From Colwellia sp. TT2012 (GTDB lineage Bacteria > Pseudomonadota > Gammaproteobacteria > Enterobacterales > Alteromonadaceae): DNA of 64,000 bases. Position numbers and translations under genes: made by a program. The notes beneath the pieces are model-generated. The model worked only from the letters and a program-made list of their open reading frames with translations, searched no databases and had not been told where the DNA came from. Below, piece after piece: positions 42,009-61,854 of the stretch (its first letter is position 1; each line of letters opens with the position of its first letter). Where the stretch lies: NCBI RefSeq assembly GCF_001440345.1, contig NZ_LJYX01000006.1, positions 124,001-188,000 of the forward strand, in the 5' to 3' direction.

Positions 42009-45000
42009 ATGTTAAAAAAAAATATAAAGCATCAAGATTTTTTTGTTATTAGAACTCCAAGACTACCAGTCAATAAATTATTATCTTTAGGTACTAACTT
42101 AACTGAGACTAAAGCATCAGTAGAATATTGGCTTACGCAGCCTGAATTCATTGAAGCGGTATACTTAGCTAGCCCCTCTTTACATGAAAGAATTGTTCAA
42201 TCAAAGGCTAATAAAAAACAAAATAAGAAAGTCGATAAAAAATCAGAAGCTAAATTCCACCAGGCTATAGTTAAATATATTATTCGGATGTCTGCAAGAC
42301 CAACCCCCTTTGGACTGTTTTCTGGTATACACAAGGGAAATATTACACTTGAAACAAATTTAAAAAGCAATGACCCATCACAGGACAGTCGGAAAACACG
42401 TTTAGATATTTTTTATTTGACGGCTATTAAAGAGTTCTTTACACAAAGCAATGTCCGCTCACCATTGCTTAAATATCATCCAAATCAGACTCATTATTAT
42501 GTTGGCAAACAATGTCGTTATATAGAAGCTTACCAGTCAAATAAATCACAGCACTACAGATTAAGTGCTATTGAAATAGACAAGTATTCTTCTTTTCTGC
42601 TTCAAAAATCTCGTGATGGTAAAAGTTTTTATGAGCTAGTTAATCTTTTTATGTTGGAGTATTCGCAAGCACAGAAAGACGATGTGGTTGAATACTTACA
42701 GGACTTGATTGATGAAAGAGGGCTAATAGCAAGCGTAAGTATGCCAATCACAGGGATTTCTCCGCATAAAGCCTTAATTCAGTCTTTAATAAAATTAGGT
42801 GAAGTCGACGTAGTAGATAATTTAGAAACAGCAGTGTATCAATTAGAACAACTTGATCACAATAGGCAAAATGAACCAGACAGTTATAAAAAAATAATAT
42901 CTCACTTATCTAAAGTACCTGTTCAAATTCAAGAAAATAAACTATTTCAAACCGACGTTTATAGGTCATTTAGTCAATGTGATTTGGCTGAAAGCCAAGT
43001 TTCAAGTTTATTAAATAAATTAATGTTACTCAATGCTTTAGGTCATAGTAAACCAAGCTATTTTAATGATTTCATCCGAAAGTTTAATCATCGTTTTGAA
43101 GGCCAGCTTGTTCCGATGATGAGCTTGTTGGACGAAGAATCTGGTATTAGTTTTTCAAATGAAACAGGCTACGAAGCACCATTAATTGCAGGCTTAGAAT
43201 TAATTACCAATAACGTAGATAGTGTTACTATTAACCCTCCTTCTGTATTAGATTGTGTAATTACACAGGCTATTACTTTACCTGAAAATAGATCAAGTTC
43301 AGTTATTAATCTTAGTTCAAAATCATTGAAAAAACATCTCAAGCAGTCTTCGGTTAAAAATGATCTACCGGTATCTTTTGCGGCCGTAATTTCTTTATAT
43401 GAAATGAAATCAGAAAAAGACAACATGAAAGAGGAATTGCTAATAAAGTTTAATGGTTGTTACGGGCCTTCTGCAGCAAATTTACTAGGCCGGTTCTGTC
43501 ATTTGGATGATTCATTAAATAATAGTGTAATTGATCACCTCGCCAAGGAATCTGATCATAGTCAAGATGTGATTTTTGCGGAAATTGTCCACATGCCAGA
43601 AGGGCGACTTGGCAATGTTATTGCCCGACCGCATTTACGGAAATATGAAATAGTGTTTTTAGCTGATAGTTGTTTGACAAGTGAGTACCAACTATCTTTA
43701 AGTGACTTATATGTTTGTGTTGAAGGTGAACAAGTCAAGCTGTGGTCTAAACGCTTAGGTAAGCGAGTTATACCTAGACTATCCAGTGCTCATAATACAC
43801 ATTTAAATAGTTTAAGTGCTTATAAGTTTTTAAGTTTATTACAATATCAAGAAGGAATACCTCCTTCGTTTAGTATGCCAGCCAGCCAGGAACAGGCAAG
43901 TTTTGTACCTCGCATTATGTTAGATAATTTGATTTTATCAGAAAAAACTTGGAGATTACCCAGAGAGGACCTTGCACAAATTACAGCGAATGGGAAATTT
44001 AATACTTCAGCATTAATTGCGCTAAAATTAAAATATCAATTAGATGATTATATATCACTGGCTACAGGTGATAATGTATTACATTTGAATTTAAATAACC
44101 CTATGATGTTAGATATTTTGTTACAAGAGACAAAGGGTCAATTACTGGTAGAGCTAAAAGAGTCACTCGTTTGTCAATATTCAACACCCGTTAAGTCCAG
44201 CGAAAATGAGAGTTATGCTAATGAGTTAATCATACCTTATCTAAACTATGGCGCGAAAGTTCAAGAAGGTATCGTTAATGTATATAAAAATGATATTACT
44301 ACAAAAAATGTTAAACGCCGTTTTTCTCCTGGATCCGAGTGGCTTAGTTTAAAGATTTACTCTGGGCATGCCACTTTAGATGCTTTATTGGCAGAAAAAA
44401 TTATACCGTTCGTTGAGGATAACTCTAAGTTATTTAAAAAGTGGTTTTTTATTCGTTATAGTGATCCTGATTGGCACTTGAGGATTCGGTTTTATGGTAA
44501 GGCAGAGGATTTATGTAGTTATTTATTACCAAACCTAAATAAACTGTTCGAACCTTTGATCGCTAGTGGAGAACTTCATAAGTTTGAACTGTTTACTTAT
44601 GATAGAGAGATCGAACGGTACGGAGGACCAGATACTATTGACCTAGTTGAAGAATTATTCGCTGCTGATAGCAATTTAGTCATTCAATCAATTATATTTC
44701 AAAATAGGTACGGTAGCGAAGATATTCGTTGGCGTATTACACTCTTAATGATGGATACCTTACTTAACAGTTTTGGTTTTACGGGAGAGCTAAAGTTAAG
44801 CTTAATTACGGAACTACGAAACGGCTTTGGAAAAGAATTTAATGAATCAGGCGTACTACGCAAACAGTTAGGGCTTAAATATAAGTTAATTGAAAGAACA
44901 CTTAAATCGGACTTTTCAATAGCATGGGTTGCAGGGGAAATAAATAAGAGTTCAGTAAACAGTACTCAACAGATAGAAAGCTTTGATGAAGAAACATTAG

Positions 45001-45236
45001 GATTACTAGAGTTACTTAAAGATTGGCAGCGAGACGTATATCCAGTAATTAAAAAGCTCAATGAATCGATTAGCCGTAAAGGAGAGTTGCAAAGTTTAAG
45101 CATCAGTTCTTTAGTTAGTTCCGTGCTTCATATGCATATTAACCGAATGTTTAAAGCCTATGGACGGGAACATGAGCTAATCATGTATGATTTTTTAAGG
45201 CGTTATTACTTTTCACTGAAAATGAGAGAAGAATAA
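42009..45236 (+). CDS. Class I lanthipeptide-type dehydratase (LanB, full length)
   Basis: 1075 aa with both halves of a complete LanB. The N-terminal glutamylation domain is marked by RMSARPTPFGLFSGIHKG (residues 94-110); the C-terminal SpaB_C elimination domain (from about 775) by WLSLKIYSGHATLDALLAEKIIPF, KKWFFIRYSDPDWHLRIRFYG and ERYGGPDTIDLVEELF. Such enzymes glutamylate Ser/Thr from Glu-tRNA and eliminate to dehydroalanine/dehydrobutyrine. No LanC cyclase, LanM or flavin decarboxylase is in the window. The likely substrate is the Ser/Thr-rich precursor at 47855. Convergent with the regulator gene. Confidence 0.92.
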   Translation: MLKKNIKHQDFFVIRTPRLPVNKLLSLGTNLTETKASVEYWLTQPEFIEAVYLASPSLHERIVQSKANKKQNKKVDKKSEAKFHQAIVKYIIRMSARPTPFGLFSGIHKGNITLETNLKSNDPSQDSRKTRLDIFYLTAIKEFFTQSNVRSPLLKYHPNQTHYYVGKQCRYIEAYQSNKSQHYRLSAIEIDKYSSFLLQKSRDGKSFYELVNLFMLEYSQAQKDDVVEYLQDLIDERGLIASVSMPITGISPHKALIQSLIKLGEVDVVDNLETAVYQLEQLDHNRQNEPDSYKKIISHLSKVPVQIQENKLFQTDVYRSFSQCDLAESQVSSLLNKLMLLNALGHSKPSYFNDFIRKFNHRFEGQLVPMMSLLDEESGISFSNETGYEAPLIAGLELITNNVDSVTINPPSVLDCVITQAITLPENRSSSVINLSSKSLKKHLKQSSVKNDLPVSFAAVISLYEMKSEKDNMKEELLIKFNGCYGPSAANLLGRFCHLDDSLNNSVIDHLAKESDHSQDVIFAEIVHMPEGRLGNVIARPHLRKYEIVFLADSCLTSEYQLSLSDLYVCVEGEQVKLWSKRLGKRVIPRLSSAHNTHLNSLSAYKFLSLLQYQEGIPPSFSMPASQEQASFVPRIMLDNLILSEKTWRLPREDLAQITANGKFNTSALIALKLKYQLDDYISLATGDNVLHLNLNNPMMLDILLQETKGQLLVELKESLVCQYSTPVKSSENESYANELIIPYLNYGAKVQEGIVNVYKNDITTKNVKRRFSPGSEWLSLKIYSGHATLDALLAEKIIPFVEDNSKLFKKWFFIRYSDPDWHLRIRFYGKAEDLCSYLLPNLNKLFEPLIASGELHKFELFTYDREIERYGGPDTIDLVEELFAADSNLVIQSIIFQNRYGSEDIRWRITLLMMDTLLNSFGFTGELKLSLITELRNGFGKEFNESGVLRKQLGLKYKLIERTLKSDFSIAWVAGEINKSSVNSTQQIESFDEETLGLLELLKDWQRDVYPVIKKLNESISRKGELQSLSISSLVSSVLHMHINRMFKAYGREHELIMYDFLRRYYFSLKMREE

Positions 45237-45241
45237 AAGAG

Positions 45242-47473
45242 TTACTCTTTAAGCTTCATATCTAGCAGATAGTTATCTTTAAACTTTACGTACATTATAT
45301 ATAGAATTGAGGTGGTTGAGCTATTGCTAAGCGTTAGTCCTACTACAACCTTATCTCTTGAAATAGGCAATAACTCCTCTTTGCCAATATTGATGGTTGG
45401 TCTTTTATGGATATAATCTGTATATCGATTTTTAATGTAGTAAATGTAATCTTTATCTGCAGTCCATACAATTTCAGATATATTTTCTAGCTGTAATAAC
45501 ATCTTAGAATCACCCGTATCTAAATTTTTCCGAATCAGTTGAAATTTAGCATTGAAAAAAAGAAGGGTGCTTTTTTCTATTAATAAAGATGAGTCTGTTT
45601 GTACGTTTGTTAATTTGATCAATTTTTCTGTTTGTAAATTATAAAACCAAGCATAGGTTTTTATAACTTGTGCATAGGTCAGTAGGATATTGTCATTTAA
45701 GGGCCAGGAAGCATCTTTTATTGTGCCAGCTAAATTAATTTTTCGTTCTAATTTAAACTCGTTAATACTATAAATAAAGAGTTCTTTTGCTGTTGTTAAA
45801 AGTAATTTACTATCATCAGGTGATACAGCTAAACTTGTTATGTTACTGATTTTTATATCCAATAGTTTTTTTCTAATACCATTCTTATAAAGCCAGAGGG
45901 ATTTTTTGACGTTACCTAAGATAAAAATACTAGCGGAGGATAAATTAAAAGGCGCTATAAAGTCCTCGAACTCATTACTATTGAAGTGTTCAGTTAACAC
46001 ATTTGTACTAACTTTATCTATATTGAAATCTTGATTTTCAGTCGCTAAAATAAAGCGGTCTTCACTCAATATATCTATTCTAAACCGTCTTCCTAAAGGG
46101 TATTCAGACTTCACTTGTTGAGCTTTTACTTGTAGGTTTTTTAAATTAAACTCTACTAAAGTACTATTCTTTTGATTGAACCATAAAAGTTTCGAATCAG
46201 ATGCACTCCAAGTAAGGTAGCTGATTTTGTAATCAACGTTATAAATTTTATTTTTTTTACTCCCATCTTTATTTGCAATAAATATATCAGTCCCCGAAGG
46301 TTGCTCTCTTAAGAAGGCAACCTTATCCATGCTATCAGATAACGTTACGAAATAATCACCACGCTCCTCACTATTTGGAGAGCTGATCTGAAATTCTTTT
46401 CCTGTAGATAGATCTCTGCTAACAATAGCGGACAAGTCAGCAATACCACGATATTTGTATTTTGTATAAATTAATCTATTATCGATATCTGATAAATCGG
46501 CACTAATTATTTCATCAGCGTTACAGTCAAATAATTTCTTGTGCGCAGCATGACTTATACTTTCAGATAAATTCACTAGCCATATTTCACACTTTTCCCC
46601 GTTATTGGGTTGTATAATTTGATATACAAGAGACTGTTTTTCTGACCATGCTATAGGAAAAATCAGATCTGTAATCGTTATAATTTTATACACCTTTAAT
46701 GTATTCATATCCTTAATGTGTAGTGCAAAATAATTGCTATTTGACGCTTTAAAACTATAGGCAAGATATTTATTATCTTTAGACATTTTAGGAGCATCTA
46801 TTGCCCCTTTTTCCCAGGAAAGAATTTCTTCATAAAATTCTAGTGCTGGAACCTCTGATGAATGAGCAGGCACTGGATTTATGGGGGCAGAGGCTAGGAA
46901 ATTATATGAACCCGCAATTAACACGATTAACATGATAAAGAATAATAGAAAGTAACTAGGTTTCTTTGTGTTAGGGGCTAAATATTTAGAGATAAAGCCT
47001 ACTTCAATTGTTTCATGAACTACATTTTTCTTCGGAGCAGATTCTAGTTGAACGGTAGGCTTTGGTTGATAGTAAATTAACTCAATAGGTAATATAAAAC
47101 TATAACCAGTTCTATAATGCGTTTTAACAACGTGGCCTATTTGTTTATCCGATTTTAATGCTTTGCGTAACTCTGACATAGCTCTATTAATTGCATTATC
47201 GTCAACATAATTTTGCTTCCAAACATTATCAACTAATTCTTGGCGAGTTATGATGCGCTCATTGTTTAAAATAAAGTACAAAAGTATATTAAAAACTAGT
47301 GGCTCAAGACTTCGCTTTGTTGTCCCGTCATCAATTATTTGCTCTTTAGGTAATAGGGTCCAATAGCCAAATTTTACAGCTTCTATTTTTTTTAAAAAGC
47401 TAACTTCCGTTTCATTTAACATTTTTACTACTACTTTAGAGTGAAATATAAACCATGCACTTTTAGATATCAT
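45242..47473 (-). CDS. CadC/ToxR-like membrane-anchored regulator with beta-propeller sensor
   Basis: 743 aa. An OmpR-type winged helix (residues about 35-128: GTTKRSLEPLVFNILLYFILNNERIITRQELVDNVW) is followed by one transmembrane helix (about 173-194) and a 540 residue periplasmic region of repeated beta blades (SPDDSKLLLTT, SASDSKLLWF) like TolB/WD40 propellers. DNA binding is cytoplasmic, sensing is periplasmic. An internal ATG at 47422 may be the true start. Divergent from the precursor-transport operon, so it probably controls it. Confidence 0.85.
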   Translation of the reverse strand: MISKSAWFIFHSKVVVKMLNETEVSFLKKIEAVKFGYWTLLPKEQIIDDGTTKRSLEPLVFNILLYFILNNERIITRQELVDNVWKQNYVDDNAINRAMSELRKALKSDKQIGHVVKTHYRTGYSFILPIELIYYQPKPTVQLESAPKKNVVHETIEVGFISKYLAPNTKKPSYFLLFFIMLIVLIAGSYNFLASAPINPVPAHSSEVPALEFYEEILSWEKGAIDAPKMSKDNKYLAYSFKASNSNYFALHIKDMNTLKVYKIITITDLIFPIAWSEKQSLVYQIIQPNNGEKCEIWLVNLSESISHAAHKKLFDCNADEIISADLSDIDNRLIYTKYKYRGIADLSAIVSRDLSTGKEFQISSPNSEERGDYFVTLSDSMDKVAFLREQPSGTDIFIANKDGSKKNKIYNVDYKISYLTWSASDSKLLWFNQKNSTLVEFNLKNLQVKAQQVKSEYPLGRRFRIDILSEDRFILATENQDFNIDKVSTNVLTEHFNSNEFEDFIAPFNLSSASIFILGNVKKSLWLYKNGIRKKLLDIKISNITSLAVSPDDSKLLLTTAKELFIYSINEFKLERKINLAGTIKDASWPLNDNILLTYAQVIKTYAWFYNLQTEKLIKLTNVQTDSSLLIEKSTLLFFNAKFQLIRKNLDTGDSKMLLQLENISEIVWTADKDYIYYIKNRYTDYIHKRPTINIGKEELLPISRDKVVVGLTLSNSSTTSILYIMYVKFKDNYLLDMKLKE

Positions 47474-47854
47474 ACCTTAATTGGTCGATGTCAATGCCAG
47501 AGCTGAATTCATGAGGATATCAAAGTTAAATGATAATATTATACATTTAGTAACATATCAATATATTGTGGTAAGTGAATACTTAATTTATTTGAGGGTA
47601 AAACAACTATTGACCAAACCTTATGAAATGTGATGCTCTATTTATTTGTTTTGTTCATCAACGGGTTAGTTGTTTTTTTTTGGGTAATCTATAACGAATC
47701 ATAAGTATCAAATAAAACTAAATTTGTTATTGTTGAGGGGTCAACAACAAGGTGTGATTTTATGCAATGGATACGATTAAACTTACTTCACTTAGCTTTG
47801 AAAGTATCTGTAATTACTTACACATCATTACGAAAATAAATAGGAAAAATCATC
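47474..47854. promoter_or_regulatory. Divergent promoter region, regulator / RiPP export operon
   Basis: 381 bases, very AT-rich, between the minus-strand regulator and the plus-strand precursor. Expected to hold both promoters and the regulator's sites. The near-palindrome ATATCAATATATTG around 47560 is a candidate; nothing firmer. Confidence 0.4.
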
Positions 47855-48010
47855 ATGATCAAATTAAAATTAAACAAGAAAAAACTAAAAAACTTATCTT
47901 TAGATTCAAGAGTTATCCCGAGTAATATCACTTCAAAGGTCTCGGGAGCATCAAATGCAAATACCATCATTGTTGGACCTACAGCCTCTACTCGAACAAC
48001 TCCTAAATAG
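47855..48010 (+). CDS. Putative LanB precursor peptide, Cys-free
   Basis: 51 aa. Basic leader KLKLNKKKLKNLSLD resembles class I lanthipeptide leaders (LSLD like the FNLD box), followed by a VSGA site typical of PCAT cleavage, then a 19 residue core SNANTIIVGPTASTRTTPK with seven Ser/Thr-type or Asn-rich positions but no Cys. Ribosome site TAGGAAA. First gene of the export operon. With no Cys and no LanC, the mature product would be a linear peptide with dehydroamino acids (inference). Confidence 0.75.
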   Translation: MIKLKLNKKKLKNLSLDSRVIPSNITSKVSGASNANTIIVGPTASTRTTPK

Positions 48011-48022
48011 ATACGAGTTCAT

Positions 48023-48571
48023 ATGCGCTATTCTTTGTTTTTTATGGTACTTATCCCATTTTATTTGACTTCAAAGGAAGTCGATATTCGCTTAGCTGAA
48101 CCTGCATCAACGGTAATTATTGCAAGACAGTCAGGTGTAATAATTTTAGTGCCTCATAAAAAAGGAGATAATGTAACCCATAATAGTGTCCTATTGTCGA
48201 TTAAAAATGATACTGGTACCACGGATGTTATTTCAATGTCTAATGGCATTATTAAGCAATATGGTGAATTGATTAAACTAGATTCACTGATAAATTTAGG
48301 TGACTTTATTGTTGAAATACAAGAGAGTCAATTAAAGGGAATTCTATCTGTGAAAAATGGACTTTTAGATGTAAAACCTTTTTTAAACGGAGTAACTTAT
48401 TGCTGTATGAAAGTCGGTACCATGGCGCTGGATATTAAAATTAATAACCAGCGTAAGACTAAGGATATGACAACATATTTCTTTTCAATAGTTACGAAAG
48501 AAACACTTTTATTAGAGTTGATTAATAACGGTAGCATTCGAAATATGCATATTTCCTTTAAACAGGAATAA
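48023..48571 (+). CDS. Small exported lipoyl/hybrid-domain protein
   Basis: 182 aa with an N-terminal signal or anchor (residues 3-16) and a biotinyl-lipoyl-like fold (ARQSGVIILVPHKKGDNVTHNSVLLSI), the same half-motif as in HlyD adaptors, but far too short to be a complete adaptor and lacking coiled coil. Twelve bases after the precursor. Possibly an accessory to the exporter; function not known. Confidence 0.6.
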   Translation: MRYSLFFMVLIPFYLTSKEVDIRLAEPASTVIIARQSGVIILVPHKKGDNVTHNSVLLSIKNDTGTTDVISMSNGIIKQYGELIKLDSLINLGDFIVEIQESQLKGILSVKNGLLDVKPFLNGVTYCCMKVGTMALDIKINNQRKTKDMTTYFFSIVTKETLLLELINNGSIRNMHISFKQE

Positions 48572-48637
48572 GGTGAGGTGTAGGAATACAAACATTCAAT
48601 CGGTTGGTAATTTAGTGTATATTTTTTAGGAAAAACT

Positions 48638-48979
48638 ATGACAATAAATGAATATTTTAAGACTTATTATAAAATAATAAGCACGGGAAACTTAGACGAA
48701 TTGAATGACTATTTTCATACAAACTCACCATTTTTAGGTGGGATTAAGCAGCAATATGAAGCAATTCGAAAACAACTTGATTTTAATATTACTCTTGAAT
48801 CAATCGAGCTGGTCTCAAAGCTCGATGATTTACTGGTAATCCGCGACCGTATACTTTTTGAAGGGCAAAAAGGAGACGAGGTGAAAAGAAATTTTAGCGG
48901 TAATCTTCATGTCATGATTAAAGAAAATGACAGCTGGAAGTTACAGTCTACAACATGTCTCTCTGTCGAACAGGCTTGA
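48638..48979 (+). CDS. SnoaL/NTF2-like small protein
   Basis: 113 aa cone-fold candidate: an N-terminal helix MTINEYFKTYYKIISTGNLDELNDYFHTNSPFLGG and four strands ending WKLQSTTCLS match the NTF2/SnoaL pattern. May bind or modify a small ligand or the peptide. No catalytic residues assigned. Within the export operon. Confidence 0.55.
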   Translation: MTINEYFKTYYKIISTGNLDELNDYFHTNSPFLGGIKQQYEAIRKQLDFNITLESIELVSKLDDLLVIRDRILFEGQKGDEVKRNFSGNLHVMIKENDSWKLQSTTCLSVEQA

Positions 48980-48987
48980 GGTGATTT

Positions 48988-52452: not shown

Positions 52453-52471
52453 CCCCCTTTCTAAAATAAAT

Positions 52472-54550: not shown

Positions 54551-54655
54551 ATGAAAGAATTAAACAATGTAGAAGTACAAGAAGTAAATGGCGGCGTTAT
54601 GATGATTTTAGCAGCTTTCGTCATAGGTAGCGCTATAGGTTATGCGATGCGGTAA
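54551..54655 (+). CDS. Double-glycine leader peptide 4
   Basis: 34 aa: leader MKELNNVEVQEVNGG, core VMMILAAFVIGSAIGYAMR. Same length and GYAMR ending as peptide 1 but a different middle without Cys. Shows core diversification inside a constant frame. Confidence 0.78.
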   Translation: MKELNNVEVQEVNGGVMMILAAFVIGSAIGYAMR

Positions 54656-54750
54656 GTAAATATTCATTGTTGATTTTGTGAAAAATTATTTTCAAGAAAA
54701 ATCAGGCAATGAACGTTTTGAATATAATTACTGAATACACTTTAAGAGCC

Positions 54751-54842
54751 AGTTGGCCCGTTTAGCAAAAACTTAAAGCCAACTAAACAACGAACCGGGT
54801 AATTACATATCAGTAAGGACCGGACATAAAAAGGAAAACAAA
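54751..54842 (+). promoter_or_regulatory. Structured 5' leader motif, copy 5
   Basis: P1 AGTTGGC/GCCAACT, CTAAAC tail and CCGG/CCGG P2 preserved; ribosome site AAAAGGAAA. Confidence 0.8.
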
Positions 54843-54947
54843 ATGAAAGAATTAAATAAAGTAGAAGTAGAAAATGTAAACGGTGGGAGTCCAGCAACAG
54901 CGATAGTTACTCTTGGTATTCTATTTTACTTTTTATACGTATATTAA
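54843..54947 (+). CDS. Double-glycine leader peptide 5
   Basis: 34 aa: leader MKELNKVEVENVNGG, core SPATAIVTLGILFYFLYVY, a hydrophobic aromatic-ended helix. The last base of its TAA stop is the first base of an inserted MITE, whose 4 base target duplication lies within the final codons. Confidence 0.75.
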   Translation: MKELNKVEVENVNGGSPATAIVTLGILFYFLYVY

Positions 54948-55119
54948 TGGCTGTGTTGTAGTTAGCTGTTGTTAACAACGTAACCTATTGATTTTACAGT
55001 GAGTGTTGGTGATGTGATAAAAGCGATCGTCACAAGCATGGATGCTTGTGTAGAGCCCCATGGATGGGTTTATGCGTCTCGCTTGTTTACTCACCCACAC
55101 TAAACTACAACAGAACCAT
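54947..55119. mobile_element. 173 bp MITE-like insertion
   Basis: Ends ATGGCTGTGTTGTAGTT and AACTACAACAGAACCAT, which are inverted repeats matching at 15 of 17 positions, flanked by ATTA on both sides (54943-54946 and 55120-55123). The sister repeat at 55639-55650 has the uninterrupted sequence TATATTAATTCATTG, i.e. the empty site. Inside are two palindromes, CACAAGCAT/ATGCTTGTG and CCCAT/ATGGG, each around GG. No coding capacity. Confidence 0.8.
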
Positions 55120-55120
55120 A

Positions 55121-55322
55121 TTAATTCATTGTAATGTGTGCGCTATTTTAAATAGTAAATATTTGTAGCTAGCTTTGTTAAAGGTTTTGACACAGCTACG
55201 CTATAAATTTTGAGCTAAAAGCCTCTTTAAAATAATCAGTTGGCCGTTTAGCAAAACTTAAGCCAACGAAACAAACTACCCGTGATCATAAAAATGAAAG
55301 CTGGACATAAAAGGAAAACAAA
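55121..55322 (+). repeat. Segmental duplication, copy a
   Basis: About 200 bases from TTAATTCATTG to the start of peptide 6, closely matching 55641-55846. Covers an AT-rich spacer and the whole leader motif. Confidence 0.85.
55238..55322 (+). promoter_or_regulatory. Structured 5' leader motif, copy 6
   Basis: Shorter variant: AGTTGGC/GCCAACG around CGTTTAGC, tail GAAACAAAC, weak P2 before TGGACATAA, then AAAAGGAAA. Confidence 0.75.
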
Positions 55323-55427
55323 ATGAAAGAATTAAACAATGTAGAAGTAGAAAATGTAAATGGTGGATTTGCAGGAATAATTGTTGTTGGTGTTTTAATA
55401 TATTTAGGATACATAAAAATGTATTAA
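55323..55427 (+). CDS. Double-glycine leader peptide 6
   Basis: 34 aa: leader MKELNNVEVENVNGG, core FAGIIVVGVLIYLGYIKMY. Hydrophobic, Gly-spaced, no Cys. Confidence 0.75.
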   Translation: MKELNNVEVENVNGGFAGIIVVGVLIYLGYIKMY

Positions 55428-55514
55428 ATATCTGTATCTAGCTTTATTGATATTTTTTTCAAAGTTAGGTTATAAATTTTCATGCCTATGCAGATAACTC
55501 AGGATTGAACTATA

Positions 55515-55530
55515 CTGTACATATAAACAC
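55515..55530. promoter_or_regulatory. LexA-box-like site
   Basis: CTGTACATATAAACAC differs from CTGT-N8-ACAG at the last base. It lies 22 bases before peptide 7, the one array gene with neither the RNA leader nor the standard leader peptide. Weak evidence from one near-match. Confidence 0.3.
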
Positions 55531-55551
55531 ACTGTATAGGTAGACATAATC

Positions 55552-55644
55552 ATGAACATGCCAGTAGAAGAAGTAAACGGCGGGAATCCAGCAGTGGCAG
55601 TTGTTACTGTTGCTATTGTAATTTATTTTTTATTCATATATTAA
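55552..55644 (+). CDS. Double-glycine leader peptide 7 (short leader)
   Basis: 30 aa: MNMPVEEVNGG then NPAVAVVTVAIVIYFLFIY, a core similar to that of peptide 5. The leader is truncated to 11 residues and there is no structured motif upstream, so it may be a partly decayed or differently controlled copy. Confidence 0.6.
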   Translation: MNMPVEEVNGGNPAVAVVTVAIVIYFLFIY

Positions 55645-55846
55645 TTCATTGTAATGTGCGCGCTATTTTAAATAGTAAATATTTATAGCTAGCTTTGTTA
55701 AAGGTTTTGACACAGTTACGCTATAAATTTTTTGAGCTAAAAGCCGCTTCAAAATAATCAGTTGGCCCGTTTAGCAAAACTTTAAGCCAACGAAACAAAC
55801 TACCCGTGATCATAAAAATGAAAGCTGGACATAAAAGGAAAGTAAA
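55641..55846 (+). repeat. Segmental duplication, copy b
   Basis: Second copy of 55121-55322, with a few substitutions and small indels. Serves as the empty-site reference for the MITE. Confidence 0.85.
55760..55846 (+). promoter_or_regulatory. Structured 5' leader motif, copy 7
   Basis: P1 AGTTGGC/GCCAACG, loop CCGTTTAGC, tail GAAACAAAC, TGGACATAA, ribosome site AAAAGGAAA. Confidence 0.75.
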
Positions 55847-55957
55847 ATGAAAGAATTAAATAACGTAGAAGTACAAGAAGTAAATGGTGCAGGCGCTACC
55901 GATCAAACAGCAGAGCAAATTATTCGTAATGGCGGTTGTGTCTTTTTACGTCCATAA
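55847..55957 (+). CDS. Leader peptide 8 (GA cleavage site)
   Basis: 36 aa: MKELNNVEVQEVNGA then GATDQTAEQIIRNGGCVFLRP. The core is hydrophilic, unlike peptides 1-7, and ends in GGCVFLRP, a motif echoed in peptide 12 and in the graspetide precursors. Confidence 0.72.
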   Translation: MKELNNVEVQEVNGAGATDQTAEQIIRNGGCVFLRP

Positions 55958-55991
55958 GCCTAAACCAATATTAGCTATAAAGCGCTTGAAC

Positions 55992-56081
55992 TGAGCCAAT
56001 CTATTAGTGAAACCTAAAGTCAACTAATCAGGTAATTATATTACTGCTAAGTGTAGAACTGGATATTAAAAGGAAAGTAAA
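55992..56081 (+). promoter_or_regulatory. Degenerate 5' leader motif, copy 8
   Basis: Recognisable by GTCAACTAATCAGGTAATTA and ACTGGATATTAAAAGGA, but the CCGTTTAGC loop and P1 are lost. Confidence 0.5.
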
Positions 56082-56189
56082 TTGAAAGAATTAAATTACG
56101 TAGAAGTACAAGATGTTAATGGTGGTATGAGTATTGTAGAGCCGACTATAGAATACATTGTAGACTTTATTAATAAATACCTGTTTTAG
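56082..56189 (+). CDS. Double-glycine leader peptide 9 (TTG start)
   Basis: 35 aa with TTG in place of ATG: leader (M)KELNYVEVQDVNGG, core MSIVEPTIEYIVDFINKYLF, an amphipathic acidic helix. Strong AAAAGGAAA site. The degenerate upstream motif and TTG start suggest reduced expression. Confidence 0.65.
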   Translation: MKELNYVEVQDVNGGMSIVEPTIEYIVDFINKYLF

Positions 56190-56213
56190 ATTTATCACAT
56201 ATGTGAATAACCC

Positions 56214-56306
56214 GTAGGCCCGTTTAGCAAAAACTTAAAGCCAACTAAACAACGAACCGGGTAATTACATATCAGTAAGGACCGGACATTAAAAAGGACA
56301 AATAAA
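56214..56306 (+). promoter_or_regulatory. Structured 5' leader motif, copy 9
   Basis: As copy 1 but the 5' arm reads GTAGGC, leaving one mismatch in P1; CCGG P2 intact. Confidence 0.72.
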
Positions 56307-56417
56307 ATGAAAGAATTAAATAACGTAGAAGTACAAGAAGTAAATGGCGGTATTTTTATTGGTTTGTTTGAAGGGATAGTTCCAATTCCATTTTACATAC
56401 CAAAGCACCTTCGTTAA
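56307..56417 (+). CDS. Double-glycine leader peptide 10
   Basis: 36 aa: leader MKELNNVEVQEVNGG, core IFIGLFEGIVPIPFYIPKHLR, Pro- and aromatic-rich with a basic end. Confidence 0.75.
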   Translation: MKELNNVEVQEVNGGIFIGLFEGIVPIPFYIPKHLR

Positions 56418-56558
56418 ACATTCAATGACTTAAATCATTAAATATAGCTTATATGATAGAACACCAGACATTTCGAGTTGGCTTTTTTGAAGTACTTTGA
56501 AAAGCCAGCTAAAAAATTTGTTATCGCTGATAAAAATATCGTTATAACAAATACAATC

Positions 56559-56639
56559 GTTGTCCCGTTTAGCGACAAAGGCAACAAACAACTAAACCGA
56601 TATAATTTAATAAATATCGGACATTAAAAGGAAAGTAAA
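56559..56639 (+). promoter_or_regulatory. Structured 5' leader motif, copy 10
   Basis: Diverged copy with compensatory change: P1 is GTTGTC/GGCAAC and P2 is CCGATAT/ATATCGG, immediately before ACATTAA. Loop CCGTTTAGC kept; CTAAAC present downstream. Confidence 0.8.
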
Positions 56640-56750
56640 ATGAAAGACTTAAATCAAGCGCAATTACAAAAAATTGTTGGTGGAGTATGGGCCGGAGAAA
56701 AAGGTGGAGGTTCTTGTACCCCTACCGGCCCAGTAATTATTATTAAGTAA
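56640..56750 (+). CDS. Double-glycine leader peptide 11
   Basis: 36 aa: MKDLNQAQLQKIVGG then VWAGEKGGGSCTPTGPVIIIK. The leader differs more from the consensus; the core is Gly-rich with one Cys and two Thr. Confidence 0.72.
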   Translation: MKDLNQAQLQKIVGGVWAGEKGGGSCTPTGPVIIIK

Positions 56751-56816
56751 AGTGTAAATGAGCCATAGGTAAAACTGCTTTTTAAATAACAGCTCAATAC
56801 ATAAGGTATTTTAATA

Positions 56817-56918
56817 ATGAAAGAATTCACACAGCAAGATTTAAAAACAGTAATTGGTGCCGTAAATAATAATCTAGATATTATTATTTTGTTTGGTGGC
56901 TGTAAAATACTACCATAA
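56817..56918 (+). CDS. Leader peptide 12 (GA cleavage site)
   Basis: 33 aa: MKEFTQQDLKTVIGA then VNNNLDIIILFGGCKILP. No RNA motif of its own; 66 bases after peptide 11, so probably on the same transcript. Ends in GGCKILP, like peptide 8. Confidence 0.68.
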   Translation: MKEFTQQDLKTVIGAVNNNLDIIILFGGCKILP

Positions 56919-57680
56919 GCATTATATTCACCCGGTTGAATTTTGGTCGCTTAACATTACCCTTCTTACAGAGGTAATTGGCTAGTGATAGCTATAGGGA
57001 ATTATCTATAGCTATAAATTTAATCTACCTCATTTAATAGTAAACGTATTATCAACACCCTTCACTAGCTTGGTTCACTCCCCGTTTATCAGATACTATC
57101 AAGTCTCTCAAAATACTGTTTTTCACTTCATTGCAAACAGGTCATTATTACTATTTTGTATCATTAGGTTGTGGAATATAATTGAAGAACTCTGCACTAA
57201 CTGTATTTTTTATAACGTTTTTAGTCTAACTCGACCTTTTCCAATAGTAATCAAAAAATCACAGCGACGGCATTATCATGATAGCTTTCACGTCGTGATT
57301 TTCGATAATGCTTTGCTAATTAACGAAAGTATATTGAATACCTGTTCAGAATTTACCCGTACTTTGTTGGTCAGTGTTCTTCGTTAAGTGACAATCAATA
57401 TAACACCAGTAGCATGACGAGAGCACAACTCGCTAAGCACGTTCAAGCATAGCCAAGCCACATGTGTTTTAAGTTTGCTAAAATCAGTCACTCGACGAGA
57501 TAAAGTTTTAATTCTACAGATTTTTTATTGATGAACACTGCTTGCGTGTTTCTATTAAACTCACGTAGTTAAGCTGACGGTTTTTGTATATTTAATTGTT
57601 AGGATTACTGCTAAAACCAAAGTTTTTAAGTTTTAGCATTTATTGGGGAAGGGGGTTATAACTAAGAATTATGAAAAATT
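56919..57680. other. Gap between array and orphan leader motif
   Basis: 760 bases. One open frame (105 codons from 57070, plus) has no ribosome site or family resemblance and is not accepted. Nothing else recognised. Confidence 0.4.
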
Positions 57681-57745
57681 GGCTGGCCTCCCGTTTAGCG
57701 ACATAAAGCCAGCCACATCAACTACCGATTTCATCGGACATTAAT
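57681..57745 (+). promoter_or_regulatory. Orphan 5' leader motif, copy 11
   Basis: P1 GGCTGGC/GCCAGCC (perfect, with two paired changes from the usual AGTTGGC/GCCAACT), loop CCCGTTTAGC, P2 CCGAT/ATCGG and CGGACATTAA. The only following ATG, near 57771, gives a seven residue ORF, so the peptide gene has been lost. Confidence 0.75.
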
Positions 57746-58335
57746 AGCTAAAATATAGCAACGATGGGCACAGATGTAAATAAATAATAGCGCTATTTTA
57801 CTATTTATTTAGCATCACAGTATTTTCTAAAGGGATTTTTATTATCGTTATAGTGGCAATACAGTTATTTTTTAAGGTTTTGCTATAGCCTAACGCCCAT
57901 TAATGTATGCCGTGAAAAATTTTATTGCAGAGATATCTGTACTAGCAAAGGCTTAGTAGATAGCTATTGAAAGCGTTTGCACTATAGACACCCCCTTTTT
58001 TATTGCATTGAAAGTTAACTTAATCGATAAGCTTTAATATTGTTTATGTTTTTCTTCATTACCTTTTCTTATTTTAACTTAATCCAATTGTTTTATTTCA
58101 TAATATTCTGTGCTAATCATTTGTTTTTAATGGTTATAATGTTTTCAATGTTGTTTTTTTACTATTTGTTTTTTTTGATTTTTTAGTTGAAGATGCTCCT
58201 GGTCGAATCATAGGCGAATGACAGAAAATAAGAGTTTTAGCTATTTATTACTATTGAATATTTTAATACCGGAGTGTCAAGCCACTATTAAAGTAAGCAA
58301 GGTGAAGTATTAACTACTACATGAATTTAAAGTGC
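57746..58335. other. AT-rich gap before graspetide genes
   Basis: 590 bases without coding character. Likely carries the promoter for the graspetide precursor set. Confidence 0.4.
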
Positions 58336-58432
58336 AGTTGGCCCGTTTAGCGACATTAGCCAATGGATATATAACCCGATAACGACAAACAATAGAGTCA
58401 ACGTCGGACATTAATATTAAAAGGAAAAAACA
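58336..58432 (+). promoter_or_regulatory. Structured 5' leader motif, copy 12 (graspetide type)
   Basis: P1 TTGGC/GCCAA with loop CCGTTTAGCGACATTA; CGAC/GTCG forms P2 before GGACATTAA; ribosome site AAAAGGAAA. Confidence 0.75.
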
Positions 58433-58633
58433 ATGAACAAACCATTTTTTGCAAATTTTTTAGAAGAGCAAGATGTTAAAGAAGTATCTGGCGGTACATA
58501 TAAAGGGCTTCCGATTGGTGTTGCTCCTGGCGGTGGTGGTTGTGTCATTACCGACCCACGTAAAGATCAGTTAGAAGTTACAATGAAAGCCCCTTCTGAT
58601 GGTGATGAAGGTGCAGAATTAGAATTATTCTAA
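58433..58633 (+). CDS. Graspetide (microviridin-like) precursor 1
   Basis: 66 aa. Leader MNKPFFANFLEEQDVKEVSGG combines the graspetide helix motif (PFFARFL-type, here PFFANFL) with a double-glycine cleavage site. The core part contains TMKAPSDGDE, matching the microviridin T-x-K-x-P-S-D-x-E-E ring region, with Ala for Tyr and Asp for the first Glu. Predicted product: Thr/Ser ester and Lys amide crosslinks made by the two ATP-grasp enzymes downstream, released and exported by the PCAT (inference). Confidence 0.9.
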   Translation: MNKPFFANFLEEQDVKEVSGGTYKGLPIGVAPGGGGCVITDPRKDQLEVTMKAPSDGDEGAELELF

Positions 58634-58649
58634 TTTTTTAAATCTTATA

Positions 58650-58743
58650 TTGGCCCGTTTAGCGACATTAGCCAACAAACAACTACACGACAGATACTCA
58701 AAATAGGGTAAGCGTCGGACATTAATATTAAAAGGAAAAAACA
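58650..58743 (+). promoter_or_regulatory. Structured 5' leader motif, copy 13
   Basis: TTGGC/GCCAA P1, loop CCGTTTAGCGACATTA, tail CAAACAACTA, CGAC/GTCG P2, GGACATTAA. Confidence 0.75.
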
Positions 58744-58944
58744 ATGAACAAACCATTTTTTGCAAATTTTTTAGAAGAGCAAGATGTTAAAGAAGTATCT
58801 GGCGGTACATATAAAGGGCTTCCGATTGGTGTTGCTCCTGGCGGTGGTGGTTGTGTCATTACCGACCCACGTAAAGATCAGTTAGAAGTTACAATGAAAG
58901 CCCCTTCTGATGGTGATGAAGGTGCAGAATTAGAATTATTCTAA
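58744..58944 (+). CDS. Graspetide precursor 2 (identical to 1)
   Basis: 66 aa, same protein as precursor 1 and apparently the same DNA sequence. Confidence 0.9.
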   Translation: MNKPFFANFLEEQDVKEVSGGTYKGLPIGVAPGGGGCVITDPRKDQLEVTMKAPSDGDEGAELELF

Positions 58945-58960
58945 TTTTTTAAATCTTATA

Positions 58961-59054
58961 TTGGCCCGTTTAGCGACATTAGCCAACAAACAACTACACG
59001 ACAGATACTCAAAATAGGGTAAGCGTCGGACATTAATATTAAAAGGAAAAAACA
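58961..59054 (+). promoter_or_regulatory. Structured 5' leader motif, copy 14
   Basis: Same as copy 13 by reading. Confidence 0.75.
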
Positions 59055-59231
59055 ATGAACAAACCATTTTTTGCAAATTTTTTAGAAGAGCAAGATGTTA
59101 AAAAAGTAACAGGCGGCATACTTCCAGGCGATGGAGGTTGTGTTATTACCGACCCACGTAAAGATCAGTTAGAAGTTACAATGAAATACCCTTCTGATGG
59201 TGATGAAGGTGCAGAATTAGAATTATTCTAA
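59055..59231 (+). CDS. Graspetide precursor 3
   Basis: 58 aa: leader as before but ending DVKKVTGG; eight residues shorter after it (ILPGDGGCVITDPRKDQ); ring region TMKYPSDGDE with the canonical Tyr. Second precursor variant. Confidence 0.88.
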   Translation: MNKPFFANFLEEQDVKKVTGGILPGDGGCVITDPRKDQLEVTMKYPSDGDEGAELELF

Positions 59232-59247
59232 TTTTTTAAATCTTATA

Positions 59248-59341
59248 TTGGCCCGTTTAGCGACATTAGCCAACAAACAACTACACGACAGATACTCAAA
59301 ATAGGGTAAGCGTCGGACATTAATATTAAAAGGAAAAAACA
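59248..59341 (+). promoter_or_regulatory. Structured 5' leader motif, copy 15
   Basis: Same as copy 13 by reading. Confidence 0.75.
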
Positions 59342-59518
59342 ATGAACAAACCATTTTTTGCAAATTTTTTAGAAGAGCAAGATGTTAAAAAAGTAACAGG
59401 CGGCATACTTCCAGGCGATGGAGGTTGTGTTATTACCGACCCACGTAAAGATCAGTTAGAAGTTACAATGAAATACCCTTCTGATGGTGATGAAGGTGCA
59501 GAATTAGAATTATTCTAA
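59342..59518 (+). CDS. Graspetide precursor 4 (same as 3)
   Basis: 58 aa, identical to precursor 3 in protein sequence. Too short to stand out from ORF length alone but framed by the same leader and 3' sequence. Confidence 0.88.
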   Translation: MNKPFFANFLEEQDVKKVTGGILPGDGGCVITDPRKDQLEVTMKYPSDGDEGAELELF

Positions 59519-59534
59519 TTTTTTAAATCTTATA

Positions 59535-59628
59535 TTGGCCCGTTTAGCGACATTAGCCAACAAACAACTACACGACAGATACTCAAAATAGGGTAAGCGT
59601 CGGACATTAATATTAAAAGGAAAAAACA
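59535..59628 (+). promoter_or_regulatory. Structured 5' leader motif, copy 16
   Basis: Same as copy 13 by reading; last of the series. Confidence 0.75.
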
Positions 59629-59805
59629 ATGAACAAACCATTTTTTGCAAATTTTTTAGAAGAGCAAGATGTTAAACAAGTAACAGGCGGCATACTTCCA
59701 GGCGATGGAGGTTGTGTTATTACCGACCCACGTAAAGATCAGTTAGAAGTTACAATGAAATACCCTTCTGATGGTGATGAAGGGGCTGAATCAGAATTAT
59801 TCTAA
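59629..59805 (+). CDS. Graspetide precursor 5
   Basis: 58 aa, as precursor 3 with DVKQVTGG and a Leu to Ser change near the C-terminus (GAESELF). Closest to the ATP-grasp genes. Confidence 0.88.
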   Translation: MNKPFFANFLEEQDVKQVTGGILPGDGGCVITDPRKDQLEVTMKYPSDGDEGAESELF

Positions 59806-59815
59806 TTTTTTAACT

Positions 59816-59832
59816 GAGCGGTTTGTCCGCTC
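59816..59832 (+). terminator. Short hairpin, possible attenuator
   Basis: GAGCGG / CCGCTC with five base loop and a T-rich tail (TTTCTTC) between the last precursor and the ligase genes. Could lower enzyme transcription relative to precursors. Confidence 0.45.
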
Positions 59833-59867
59833 TTTCTTCAAACGACTTATCAGCTATTTAAAAGATT

Positions 59868-60878
59868 ATGACTATGAACAATACTAATGTGCTTTTTTTA
59901 ACTCACAGTAAAGACTCTTATGTACCTCAACTTATAGAGAAGTGCTTAGCAAAGAAGGGGTTGAAAATGGTACGGATGAATACTGATTCATACCCGCTTA
60001 ATATTAAACTAACGGCTTTTCAGAGTAATGAGGTTGTGTCAGGAGAGCTGACAGTTGATGGAGTAACATATCAACTTGATGAGTTTTGTGCGGTATATTT
60101 TCGAAAAAATATGCAAGCTAATTTAACTAGCGAACTTTCTGGTGATCTATTAAAGCAGGCAACTAAAGAAGCCTCAGCAGCTAAGAATGCAATTTTGTAT
60201 GCGCTTGAATCAGTATTTTGGATCGATTATCCCTTTGATATTCAACGCGCGGAAAATAAACAGTTGCAATTACTTTTAGCTAAACAAGTAGGCTTAATAA
60301 TTCCTAATTCGCTACTAAGCAATGATCCTACAAAGGTAGAGAAGTTTTACCACCAAGAGCAAGGTCATATCATTAGTAAAATGCTGACCCCTTTGAAAAA
60401 TTTTATGCAATCAGCTAGCTCGTTTGTTTATACCTCAAAAGTTAAAGAAGAACATTTATCACAATTAGAAAGCTTGAAGCTATGCCCTATGCAATTTCAA
60501 CAAGAAATTGAAAAAGCTTACGAACTTCGTGTCATTTATGTTGATGGTCATTTTTTTACTGGAAAAATTTCTACTACAGCTATAACTGATAGTAACAAGC
60601 CTGATTGGCGAAGAGCCAATAGTAATGATTTCTTTTGGCAAGAATACTGTCTACCAACGGAGGTTTCCGACAAAATAACTCATCTAATGAATCGATTATC
60701 TTTAAAGTTCGGTGCACTTGACCTTATTAAATCAATAAACAATGAATATGTGTTTTTAGAGGTAAACCCTTGCGGAGAGTGGGGGATGTTACAGCAAAGC
60801 TTAGACCTACCTATTGCAGAACAAATCGCAGAATGTATTCATAATAATGTAATGAAAGGAAAAAAACATGCAGCATAA
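59868..60878 (+). CDS. Graspetide ATP-grasp ligase 1 (MdnB/MdnC family)
   Basis: 336 aa. N-terminus VLFLTHSKDSYVPQLIEKCL and the FNTD-like MVRMNTDSYPL, central KLCPMQFQQEIEKAYELRVIYVDG, and the metal/ATP site FGALDLIKSINNEYVFLEVNPCGEW are typical of microviridin ligases. It uses ATP to join acidic side chains to Thr/Ser or Lys in the core after binding the PFFANFL helix. Whether it is the ester- or amide-former cannot be told here. Overlaps the second ligase by 11 bases. Confidence 0.92.
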   Translation: MTMNNTNVLFLTHSKDSYVPQLIEKCLAKKGLKMVRMNTDSYPLNIKLTAFQSNEVVSGELTVDGVTYQLDEFCAVYFRKNMQANLTSELSGDLLKQATKEASAAKNAILYALESVFWIDYPFDIQRAENKQLQLLLAKQVGLIIPNSLLSNDPTKVEKFYHQEQGHIISKMLTPLKNFMQSASSFVYTSKVKEEHLSQLESLKLCPMQFQQEIEKAYELRVIYVDGHFFTGKISTTAITDSNKPDWRRANSNDFFWQEYCLPTEVSDKITHLMNRLSLKFGALDLIKSINNEYVFLEVNPCGEWGMLQQSLDLPIAEQIAECIHNNVMKGKKHAA

Positions 60879-61854
60879 AATAGTATTAATTATTACCCAT
60901 AGTCATGACAATAATTCAATTGAAGAAGTTTCTGGTTTTCTAAAAGAACAAGGCATAAAAGCGGTAAGGTTTAATACTGATTTATTTCCAACTAAAATTA
61001 CAATTGAATCCTACCAAGGAGATATAAATCAGCAAATATTAACTATTGAAAATGGCGAGCAATACAAACTTTCTGATATTGGTGCCATTTGGTATCGTAG
61101 ATTTCATACTGGCCGAGACCTTCCTAAGGATATTGAGGCTCAAGCGAGAAAAACTTGCTTTGAAGAATCAAAGCGTACTCTGTTAGGTTACTTTGATGCG
61201 CTCGATGCGTTTAAAATGGATGATTATTGGGCTATTCGACGTGCATCATCAAAAGAATTACAGTTAATCAAAGCACGTGAGCATGGTATTGACATTCCTG
61301 ACACATTAACTACTAATAGCCCTCAAGCTGTAGTTGATTTTTATCATAAACATAACGGCGACATCATTAGCAAAATGCAAACAGCCTTTGCTATTTACAG
61401 TGAAGGCAAAGAAAGTGTAGTTTATACAAATCCAATTAAAGAATCAGATCTTGAAAAGTTGGATGAATTAAAATTTTGCCCTATGCAGTTTCAACAAGCA
61501 TTAGCCAAAGAATTAGAATTACGTGCCACAGTAGTTGGTGATAAGGTGTTTTGTATAGCCATTGATAGTAATAAATTTCAAGACGAAAATTATGATTGGC
61601 GTAAAAAAGGTTCATCTACTTTAGAAGCTTGGTTTCCTTACTCGCTACCAGAACATGAAGAGAAAAAGTTGATCGCACTTACCAAAGATTTGGGTCTTAA
61701 TTACGGAGCAGCGGACTATATTTTAACACCAAAAGGGGAATTGAAATTTTTAGAAATCAATCCGTGCGGTGAATTTTATTGGGCTGTGAAGTATCAAAAA
61801 CAAAAAATCTGTCAGGCGATTGCGAATCATCTAGCTTTAAATATGCATTGTTAG
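60868..61854 (+). CDS. Graspetide ATP-grasp ligase 2 (MdnB/MdnC family)
   Basis: 328 aa paralogue of ligase 1: IVLIITHSHDNNSIEEVSGFL, VRFNTDLFP, FCPMQFQQALAKELELRATVVGD and FLEINPCGEFYW. The pair matches the two-enzyme system (one ester, one amide former) of microviridin biosynthesis. No dedicated acetyltransferase lies next to it. Starts within the end of ligase 1. Confidence 0.92.
   Translation: MQHKIVLIITHSHDNNSIEEVSGFLKEQGIKAVRFNTDLFPTKITIESYQGDINQQILTIENGEQYKLSDIGAIWYRRFHTGRDLPKDIEAQARKTCFEESKRTLLGYFDALDAFKMDDYWAIRRASSKELQLIKAREHGIDIPDTLTTNSPQAVVDFYHKHNGDIISKMQTAFAIYSEGKESVVYTNPIKESDLEKLDELKFCPMQFQQALAKELELRATVVGDKVFCIAIDSNKFQDENYDWRKKGSSTLEAWFPYSLPEHEEKKLIALTKDLGLNYGAADYILTPKGELKFLEINPCGEFYWAVKYQKQKICQAIANHLALNMHC

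Follow-up and report, generated by a model that had tools for sequence, protein, structure and literature searches.

A Colwellia locus that appears to join LanB, double-glycine peptide and graspetide genes around a single C39 exporter

In a 64,000-nucleotide stretch of the genome of Colwellia sp. TT2012 (the window; positions 124001–188000 of a 1.04-Mb contig, from a draft of 223 contigs), a locus at 42009–61854 carries genes for a LanB dehydratase, a C39 peptidase-ATP-binding cassette exporter (PCAT), an array of double-glycine (DG) peptides and a graspetide module. We propose, with a probability that we put at about 0.68, that two peptide clusters have been joined here around one exporter, with LanB making an unbridged dehydropeptide, PCAT being shared and a two-hairpin leader heading messenger RNAs (mRNAs) of the locus. 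The left part, comprising LanB, a CadC-type regulator, the precursor at 47855, HlyD and PCAT, would derive from the class I lanthipeptide clusters of the family; it would have lost LanC and, with a precursor that has no Cys, would yield a peptide that contains dehydroalanine and dehydrobutyrine and lacks thioether rings. The right part, made up of the DG array, the graspetide precursors, MvdC and MvdD, would derive from clusters with a PCAT of their own, gone from this locus. One PCAT with its HlyD would then cut and export unmodified bacteriocin-like peptides, graspetides with omega-ester and omega-amide links, and the LanB product. Each of the genes that bear the 5′ element (14 of 17) would have its own mRNA start, headed by the two-hairpin leader with the ribosome site left open, and this leader would stabilise or activate the DG and graspetide mRNAs together.

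The genes of the left part are as follows.

42009–45236, forward strand: LanB, a full-length class I lanthipeptide-type dehydratase of 1075 amino acids (Lant_dehydr_N, E 1.4e-119; Lant_dehydr_C, E 1.6e-59)
45242–47473, reverse strand: CadC/ToxR-type regulator with a propeller-like C-terminal part (Trans_reg_C, E 2.4e-15)
47855–48010, forward strand: LanB-type precursor, an open reading frame (ORF) of 51 codons, leader ending in SGA, core SNANTIIVGPTASTRTTPK (leader similar to those of precursors at other LanB loci, tblastn E 0.001 to 3e-6)
48988–50232, forward strand: HlyD-type membrane-fusion protein (HlyD_3, E 7.2e-14; TIGR01843, E 1.9e-44, under the cut-off)
50233–52452, forward strand: PCAT (Peptidase_C39, E 1.1e-38; peptidase domain against the PCAT peptidase domain 6mpz, E 5.4e-27)

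The full LanB with both of its domains and the HlyD and C39 exporter genes lie where a preliminary description of this DNA had placed them. The window PCAT is the single match to PF03412 (C39) in the whole genome, which makes one exporter for the three leader types the simplest reading, and the earlier suggestion to this effect holds in outline: PCAT and HlyD together likely cut and export all three peptide classes, export being predicted. DG, graspetide and LanB-type leaders all end in GG or GA and carry a hydrophobic residue at positions −4 and −12, apart from the shortened DG peptide 7, which by reading lacks the one at −12. Position −7 is Val or Leu in the DG and graspetide leaders and Thr in the LanB-type leader. 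The hydrophobic −4/−12 pattern is given for leaders of C39 peptidase substrates in passages of PMC10885120.

The right part contains the DG array, the graspetide precursors and their ligases.

53672–53776, forward strand: DG peptide 1 (TIGR03949, class IIb bacteriocin, 28.2 bits; cut-off 21.5)
53965–54069, forward strand: DG peptide 2, same sequence as 1
54258–54362, forward strand: DG peptide 3, same sequence as 1
54551–54655, forward strand: DG peptide 4
54843–54947, forward strand: DG peptide 5
55323–55427, forward strand: DG peptide 6
55552–55644, forward strand: DG peptide 7, with a shortened leader and no 5′ element
55847–55957, forward strand: DG peptide 8, leader ending in Gly-Ala
56082–56189, forward strand: DG peptide 9, with a TTG start and a degenerate 5′ element (weak model match, 12.4 bits, E 2.3, chance level)
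56307–56417, forward strand: DG peptide 10
56640–56750, forward strand: DG peptide 11, with a divergent leader
56817–56918, forward strand: DG peptide 12, with a divergent leader and no 5′ element
58433–58633, forward strand: microviridin-type precursor 1, leader ending in SGG (NF033738, 48.7 bits; cut-off 26)
58744–58944, forward strand: microviridin-type precursor 2, same sequence as 1
59055–59231, forward strand: microviridin-type precursor 3, core motif TMKYPSDGDE
59342–59518, forward strand: microviridin-type precursor 4, same sequence as 3
59629–59805, forward strand: microviridin-type precursor 5 (NF033738, 56.3 bits; cut-off 26)
59816–59832, forward strand: terminator-like hairpin between precursors and ligases (one of 9 such sites in the stretch, 7.8 being expected by chance)
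59868–60878, forward strand: MvdC-type ATP-grasp ligase (best family TIGR04185, 354.9 bits, under the cut-off of 425)
60868–61854, forward strand: MvdD-type ATP-grasp ligase (best family TIGR04184, 380.2 bits, under the cut-off of 475; 5ig9, E 1.9e-77)

All twelve small peptide ORFs reported in the preliminary description are present, and the near-constant leader ascribed to them is found in nine: MKELNxVEVxxVNGG/GA follows an ATG in eight and a TTG in one (56082), the deviating leaders being those at 55552 (shortened), 56640 and 56817. The TIGR03949 cut-off is passed by DG peptide 1, hence by its two identical copies, and by none of the five other DG peptides scanned. The five microviridin-type precursors with a Gly-Gly leader end and the two ATP-grasp ligases are likewise confirmed (58433–59805 and 59868–61854); the NF033738 scan covered precursors 1 and 5, the remaining three being identical to these or nearly so. 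An MvdC/MvdD-type ligase pair next to precursors with a PFFxxFLE leader and a TxKxPSD core has the make-up of a microviridin-type module, and from these sequences the precursors would yield peptides crosslinked by omega-ester and omega-amide bonds. The core residue that corresponds to E12 of microviridin is Asp in the window. A graspetide precursor searched against plasmids gave no match.

Comparison with relatives bears on where the exporter came from. In each of the three relatives that we compared, G443, G051 (same GTDB genus as the window's genome) and Thalassotalea marina (G543), the DG/graspetide module comes with an exporter of its own. One strand of a G443 contig carries HlyD, a DG ORF with a weak element, a microviridin-type precursor with an element, the ligases MvdC and MvdD, PCAT and a CadC-type regulator. 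The G051 genes are split over two contigs, one bearing DG peptides, a microviridin-type precursor and MvdD, the other DG peptides, PCAT and a regulator; T. marina has HlyD, DG peptides, PCAT and a regulator, with no ligase in the fetched stretch. G443 holds both modules on separate contigs (L062 and L076), each with its own HlyD and PCAT. MvdD of the window is 77.5–79.1% identical to those of G051 and G443, which are 81.6% identical to each other, whereas the window PCAT shares 55–56% identity with the PCATs of G051, G443 and T. marina (79–89% among themselves). Its identity to the two LanB-locus PCATs compared is 61–62%, and it groups with LanB-locus PCATs in a tree (support 96/94). A remnant of the exporter's surroundings is found at 57672–57764 of the window, which is 89.5% identical over 95 nucleotides to L019:4129–4221, directly 3′ of the G051 PCAT stop; an equivalent element also lies 3′ of the T. 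marina PCAT, and in G443 no match to this flank was found after its PCAT. Because PCAT diverges where MvdD is conserved, because the flank survives and because three relatives have their own exporter, the array's own PCAT appears to have been lost in the window. The CadC-type regulator appears to belong with the LanB half, because it is 29–37% identical to regulators near HlyD and PCAT in L129, L130 and L131, against 22–23% to DG-locus regulators.

Loss of the array's own PCAT would also suit two unrelated clusters that are neighbours by chance, with the remaining PCAT exporting the LanB product only and the DG/graspetide part decaying after its exporter was gone. Some DG ORFs do look degenerate (TTG start, shortened leader), and an IS66-type transposase lies beside the locus. 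We nevertheless judge this unlikely, given that the frames of all five graspetide precursors and of the two ligases are open and keep their family motifs, that the leaders retain the C39 pattern, that tandem copies of 293 and 287 nucleotides hold intact ORFs and that the pairing of LanB and ATP-grasp is seen again in two other genera.

The LanB half was compared with LanB loci of the family. LanB relatives occur in 38 of 395 genomes sampled from the family, a count that takes in the window's own genome and some weak or fragmentary matches; 20 LanB loci were fetched from 20 of these 38 genomes, and one more later (G508). LanC is present in 19 of the 20 loci (Pfam confirmed each of the nine LanC proteins scanned), and 17 have HlyD together with PCAT, the HlyD match being partial in one. 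In the whole draft genome of TT2012 the LanC profile PF05147 gave no match, and a LanC query found none in the window. Nineteen precursors were read in 12 of the 20 loci. Sixteen came from a listing pattern and have 2 to 17 Cys in the core, two extra ones have 2 and 3 Cys, and the L073 precursor has a single Cys, so that at least 2 Cys are found in 18 precursors from 11 of the 20 loci. The pattern gave nothing in 11 of the 20 loci, the precursors of L075, L079 and L073 being added from leader matches or by eye; in 8 of the 20, none was read by pattern, leader match or eye. The window precursor, which is preceded by a ribosome-site-like AGGA, has 2 Ser, 5 Thr and no Cys in its core. Thus, of the marks of a class I lanthipeptide cluster, the full-length LanB is there and LanC and core Cys were not found. 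Since the genome has no LanC match and the core has no Cys, the LanB product is likely a dehydrated, unbridged peptide. This precursor and the lack of LanC, like the orphan element described below, were absent from the preliminary description.

LanB itself aligns with NisB (4wd9, E 2.3e-28) through the TPFGLFS, YDxExERYGG and HxHxNR blocks of both domains. Such intact blocks might speak for an ordinary lanthipeptide whose rings are closed by an unseen enzyme, a reading that we consider very improbable with no LanC detected by profile in the draft genome and no Cys in the sole precursor found. We give scarcely any credence to the idea that LanB modifies the array peptides, with the entire locus then producing dehydrated or lanthionine peptides. 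LanB and the array do share one 20-kb stretch, and the LanB locus L073 has a DG-leader ORF nearby; yet six of the 12 DG cores contain no Ser or Thr, LanB has its own precursor type, and no LanB match was found in the fetched DG loci L019, L020, L062 and L063 (the LanB loci had no systematic DG-array search).

The third component of the proposal is the two-hairpin 5′ element, located with covariance model R2.

53580–53663, forward strand: 5′ element, first of nine before DG peptides (E 4.5e-15 to 1.2e-9 for the nine)
53873, 54166, 54459, 54752, 55239, 55761, 56214 and 56559 (starts), forward strand: the other DG-associated elements
57682–57749, forward strand: orphan element in the downstream flank of the apparently lost PCAT, with no precursor ORF after it (E 7e-7)
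58337–58419, forward strand: first of five elements before graspetide precursors, the others starting at 58649, 58960, 59247 and 59534 (E 6.9e-12 and 2.7e-12)

A repeated 5′ leader shared throughout the locus had been suggested earlier. It is borne out for the DG and graspetide genes and not for the LanB part: the covariance model gave no strong match at 42009–53579, and the element was not found in the 20 LanB loci or in five other ATP-grasp loci (best match E 2.3). An exact-core search returned 15 copies in the window, all on the forward strand, and a longer exact core returned 12 in the genome, all within the window. The covariance model likewise found 15 copies in the whole genome, all in the array, before nine DG ORFs and five graspetide ORFs and at the orphan site. 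The DG and graspetide genes that do not carry it are 55552 and 56817, with no element, and 56082, with a degenerate one. Over four genomes in three genera we count 23 strong copies (13 before DG peptides, 7 before graspetides and 3 orphans), all in sense orientation in DG/graspetide-type loci. The orphans lie in the PCAT downstream flank of three genomes (L019:4139–4205, L063:8862–8929 and window 57682–57749) and are followed by very short ORFs (3–7 codons, by eye).

Hairpin 1 of the element holds CGUUUAGC(G/A)A in 22 of the 23 copies, and hairpin 2 leads into GGACAU in 20 (GGAUAU or GAACAU in the others), followed by the ribosome site. In alignment A7, which has 17 distinct rows and was fitted to the covariance model, 97.1% of the cells of helix 1 are paired, and 5 of its 6 pairs show changes in both partners; for helix 2 the figures are 72.3% and 3 of 6. 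The covariation score of A7 is 0.376, compared with 0.168 (standard deviation 0.023) in shuffled alignments, none of 500 reaching it, and at most 0.094 when the structure is slid. The Thalassotalea copies have different arm sequences and still pair. The Shine-Dalgarno sequence is mostly unpaired in 14 of 15 predicted copy folds, the exception being one T. marina copy; a switch that masks this sequence and an RNA thermometer were rejected on these folds, and the open site speaks, as far as folding predictions go, against simple masking and for a head that would stabilise or activate the mRNA. A GUUUAG/CUAAAC pseudoknot was discarded, the pairing being seen by eye in some copies only.

Several copies are recent tandem duplicates, and the element might be a by-product of that duplication, or a DNA site such as an operator or recombination site, with no regulatory RNA involved; weak covariation in a plain alignment and the lack of a promoter excess, both given below, would agree with this. 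We think it improbable, since the arms change with pairing kept over four genomes in three genera, and the strong copies are all in sense orientation, each standing ahead of a DG-leader ORF except for the three orphans in a PCAT flank. An attC-like recombination site was rejected in particular: when the arms are read against the attC consensus boxes, the outward AAC...GTT order and position do not fit the attC layout (no integrase search was made).

Searches for further copies of the element returned few. Model R1 matched in 1 of 394 genomes of the order and R2 in 3 of 395 of the family, the window's own genome included in both; the 395 genomes are a sample of a larger family, and the RNA-model filters are stricter. 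G051 is outside the R2 family matches though it bears the element, and presumably was not in the sample drawn. A narrow exact pattern run on GTDB genomes found NORP201, T. marina and one chance match, and would miss copies such as that of G443. Pattern matches in G012, in Mycobacterium nebraskense and on an IMG/VR contig (inside an ORF) were set aside as chance, as were weak R1 and R2 matches at E > 0.05; L062:9526–9606 (E 0.077) may be a real copy because a DG ORF follows it. Rfam gave no match at the copies of the element in the window (up to E 5) or in two relatives (up to E 1), and none over the gathering score; one weak overlap in minus-strand sense in L063 is far under the cut-off, at chance level. 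Beyond the two-hairpin leader as such, we put forward very tentatively, as a possibility that we doubt, that the element is an undescribed class of cis-regulatory RNA and that the peptide regulon is set by the mRNA head rather than by chemistry. Unmodified bacteriocins and graspetides that leave through one PCAT would then be switched together, and the orphan in the exporter flank of three genomes could be a non-coding decoy or sensor that tunes the rest.

Several points weigh against the proposal that two clusters were joined around a shared exporter and leader. The genome is a draft. An approximately unbiased (AU) test leaves a grouping of the window PCAT with the DG-locus PCATs unrejected (p 0.07), and the HlyD tree places the window protein without resolution. 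L073 also has no LanC in the fetched stretch, so that its loss is not unique to the window. As to the element, the alignment with strong covariation is the one fitted to the model; in a plain MAFFT alignment (A4, ten sequences) the score is reached by 41 of 500 shuffles and the number of both-side changes by 213 of 500. The element occurs in none of the five other ATP-grasp loci and is rare in the order and the family. Promoter-like sites number 42 against 51.5 expected, an absence of excess from which a separate mRNA per copy gains no support.

The preliminary description had called for a search of related genomes for the same combination, and this search finds its LanB and ATP-grasp components together again. 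LanB and ATP-grasp genes lie within 15 kb on the same contig in 5 of the 38 LanB genomes, the window included, a lower bound since many contigs are short; PCAT is present in three of the four other cases, and the recurrence reaches two other genera. In G508, LanB-type precursors stand on one strand of L127:225–12735 together with two LanC matches, LanB, two short ORFs whose leaders resemble those of precursors (with the endings TAGS and TGG), an ATP-grasp protein with matches to the maturase families, HlyD and PCAT; this is a cleaner composite of lanthipeptide and graspetide type than the window. A further ORF on this strand may encode an erythromycin-esterase-like protein (NCBIfam gave no match). 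In G731, L129, continued by L067, holds ATP-grasp, three precursor matches, a CadC-type regulator, GlmU, HlyD, PCAT, LanC and LanB. G652 has HlyD-PCAT-LanC-LanB, with ATP-grasp and a precursor beyond GlmU and a radical SAM/SPASM maturase farther on, and in G577 the genes beside GlmU are those for an ATP-grasp, precursors, a DG peptide and LanB, with no PCAT in the stretch. In these loci GlmU is a putative assignment from sequence. Three of the four relatives' ATP-grasps were scanned; they fit TIGR04187 or TIGR04185 best, under the cut-offs, and are not an MvdC/MvdD pair. As read from these sequences, several modules for DG-leader peptides have come together around a single PCAT more than once in the family. 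The maturase of G652 (L128:11898–13577; best match TIGR04103, 624.9 bits, under the cut-off of 725) lies with a short ORF whose leader ends in Glu-Gly-Gly; the two form one more peptide module close to the LanB/PCAT cluster beside GlmU.

Two further ORFs stand between the LanB-type precursor and the exporter genes of the window.

48023–48571, forward strand: ORF of 182 amino acids (one weak NCBIfam match, E 0.008)
48638–48979, forward strand: ORF of 113 amino acids, three helices followed by four long strands (AlphaFold2 without alignment, mean predicted local distance difference test (pLDDT) 65.8)

For the first, Pfam gave no family at E 0.01, and its predicted model (pLDDT 30.5) is not usable. 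The second had no family in the Pfam scan, and we liken its predicted fold to an NTF2/SnoaL-like topology. Neither ORF in 48023–48979 had a tblastn match in 25 loci, of which 20 are LanB loci. The locus is island-like in composition, with a G+C content of 0.32–0.36 over window positions 44001–60000 (4-kb steps) and 0.36–0.41 in the rest of the window. A piece of an IS66-type transposase lies to its right (62400–63104). To its left, beside LanB, where most relatives carry LanC, are broken frames at 40695–41691 that look transposase-like (Pfam silent). In G051, a rhomboid-family protein (PF01694, L020:4743–6017) comes right behind a DG peptide that matches Bacteriocin_IIc and microcin V weakly, and group II intron RNA matches surround a reverse-transcriptase-like ORF (L020:2671–4582) between two DG peptide groups.

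Parts of this arrangement are known. Passages of PMC13039773 describe double-glycine motifs in class II and III microviridin precursors, often with C39 transporters, and in those of PMC8939145 a C39/ABC gene tops the neighbours of graspetide ATP-grasps by weighted frequency; the latter also mention loci with an ATP-grasp, a double-glycine peptidase and an erythromycin-esterase relative. The window resembles the clusters in these passages in its MvdC/MvdD-type ligases, PFFxxFLE leader, TxKYPSD core, GG site, PCAT and HlyD, and differs in that its PCAT is nearer to those of LanB clusters and that five precursors each have a structured 5′ leader in common with unmodified DG peptides. According to passages of PMC9993889, a class I lanthipeptide of Pseudoalteromonas citrea (pci) has been expressed. 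LanB is alike there, and a GG-leader precursor and PCAT are alike in the relatives fetched here (the passages mention no transporter); unlike the Pseudoalteromonas clusters, the window has no LanC match and no core Cys, and has a graspetide module and a bacteriocin array joined to it. Class II microcin and class IIb bacteriocin systems, and a plasmid region of S. oneidensis, share short hydrophobic cores, GG leaders and HlyD with PCAT, whereas in the window the cores have some 20 residues, twelve such genes follow one another and no immunity gene was recognised. Rfam families of cis-regulatory leaders resemble the element in having conserved hairpins with compensatory changes just 5′ of the ribosome site, but it matches none of them. 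The preliminary description knew of no system uniting these modules. Among open-licence papers this holds for the union, no publication being found on LanB and graspetides behind one PCAT or on the two-hairpin leader RNA; it does not hold for GG-leader graspetides with a C39 exporter or for the Pseudoalteromonas lanthipeptides, which the same passages already report. The component parts are thus known, and the candidate RNA family is the most original part of the locus.

For the biology of the family, the locus suggests that a PCAT can serve as a meeting point for separate peptide clusters, which go on to lose exporters of their own, and exporter promiscuity becomes directly testable within one strain. 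The two-hairpin leader is a compact, covarying candidate for an RNA family on genes of secreted peptides, with natural variants at hand. A LanB without LanC, next to a substrate free of Cys, would point to a route from lanthipeptides to linear dehydropeptides.

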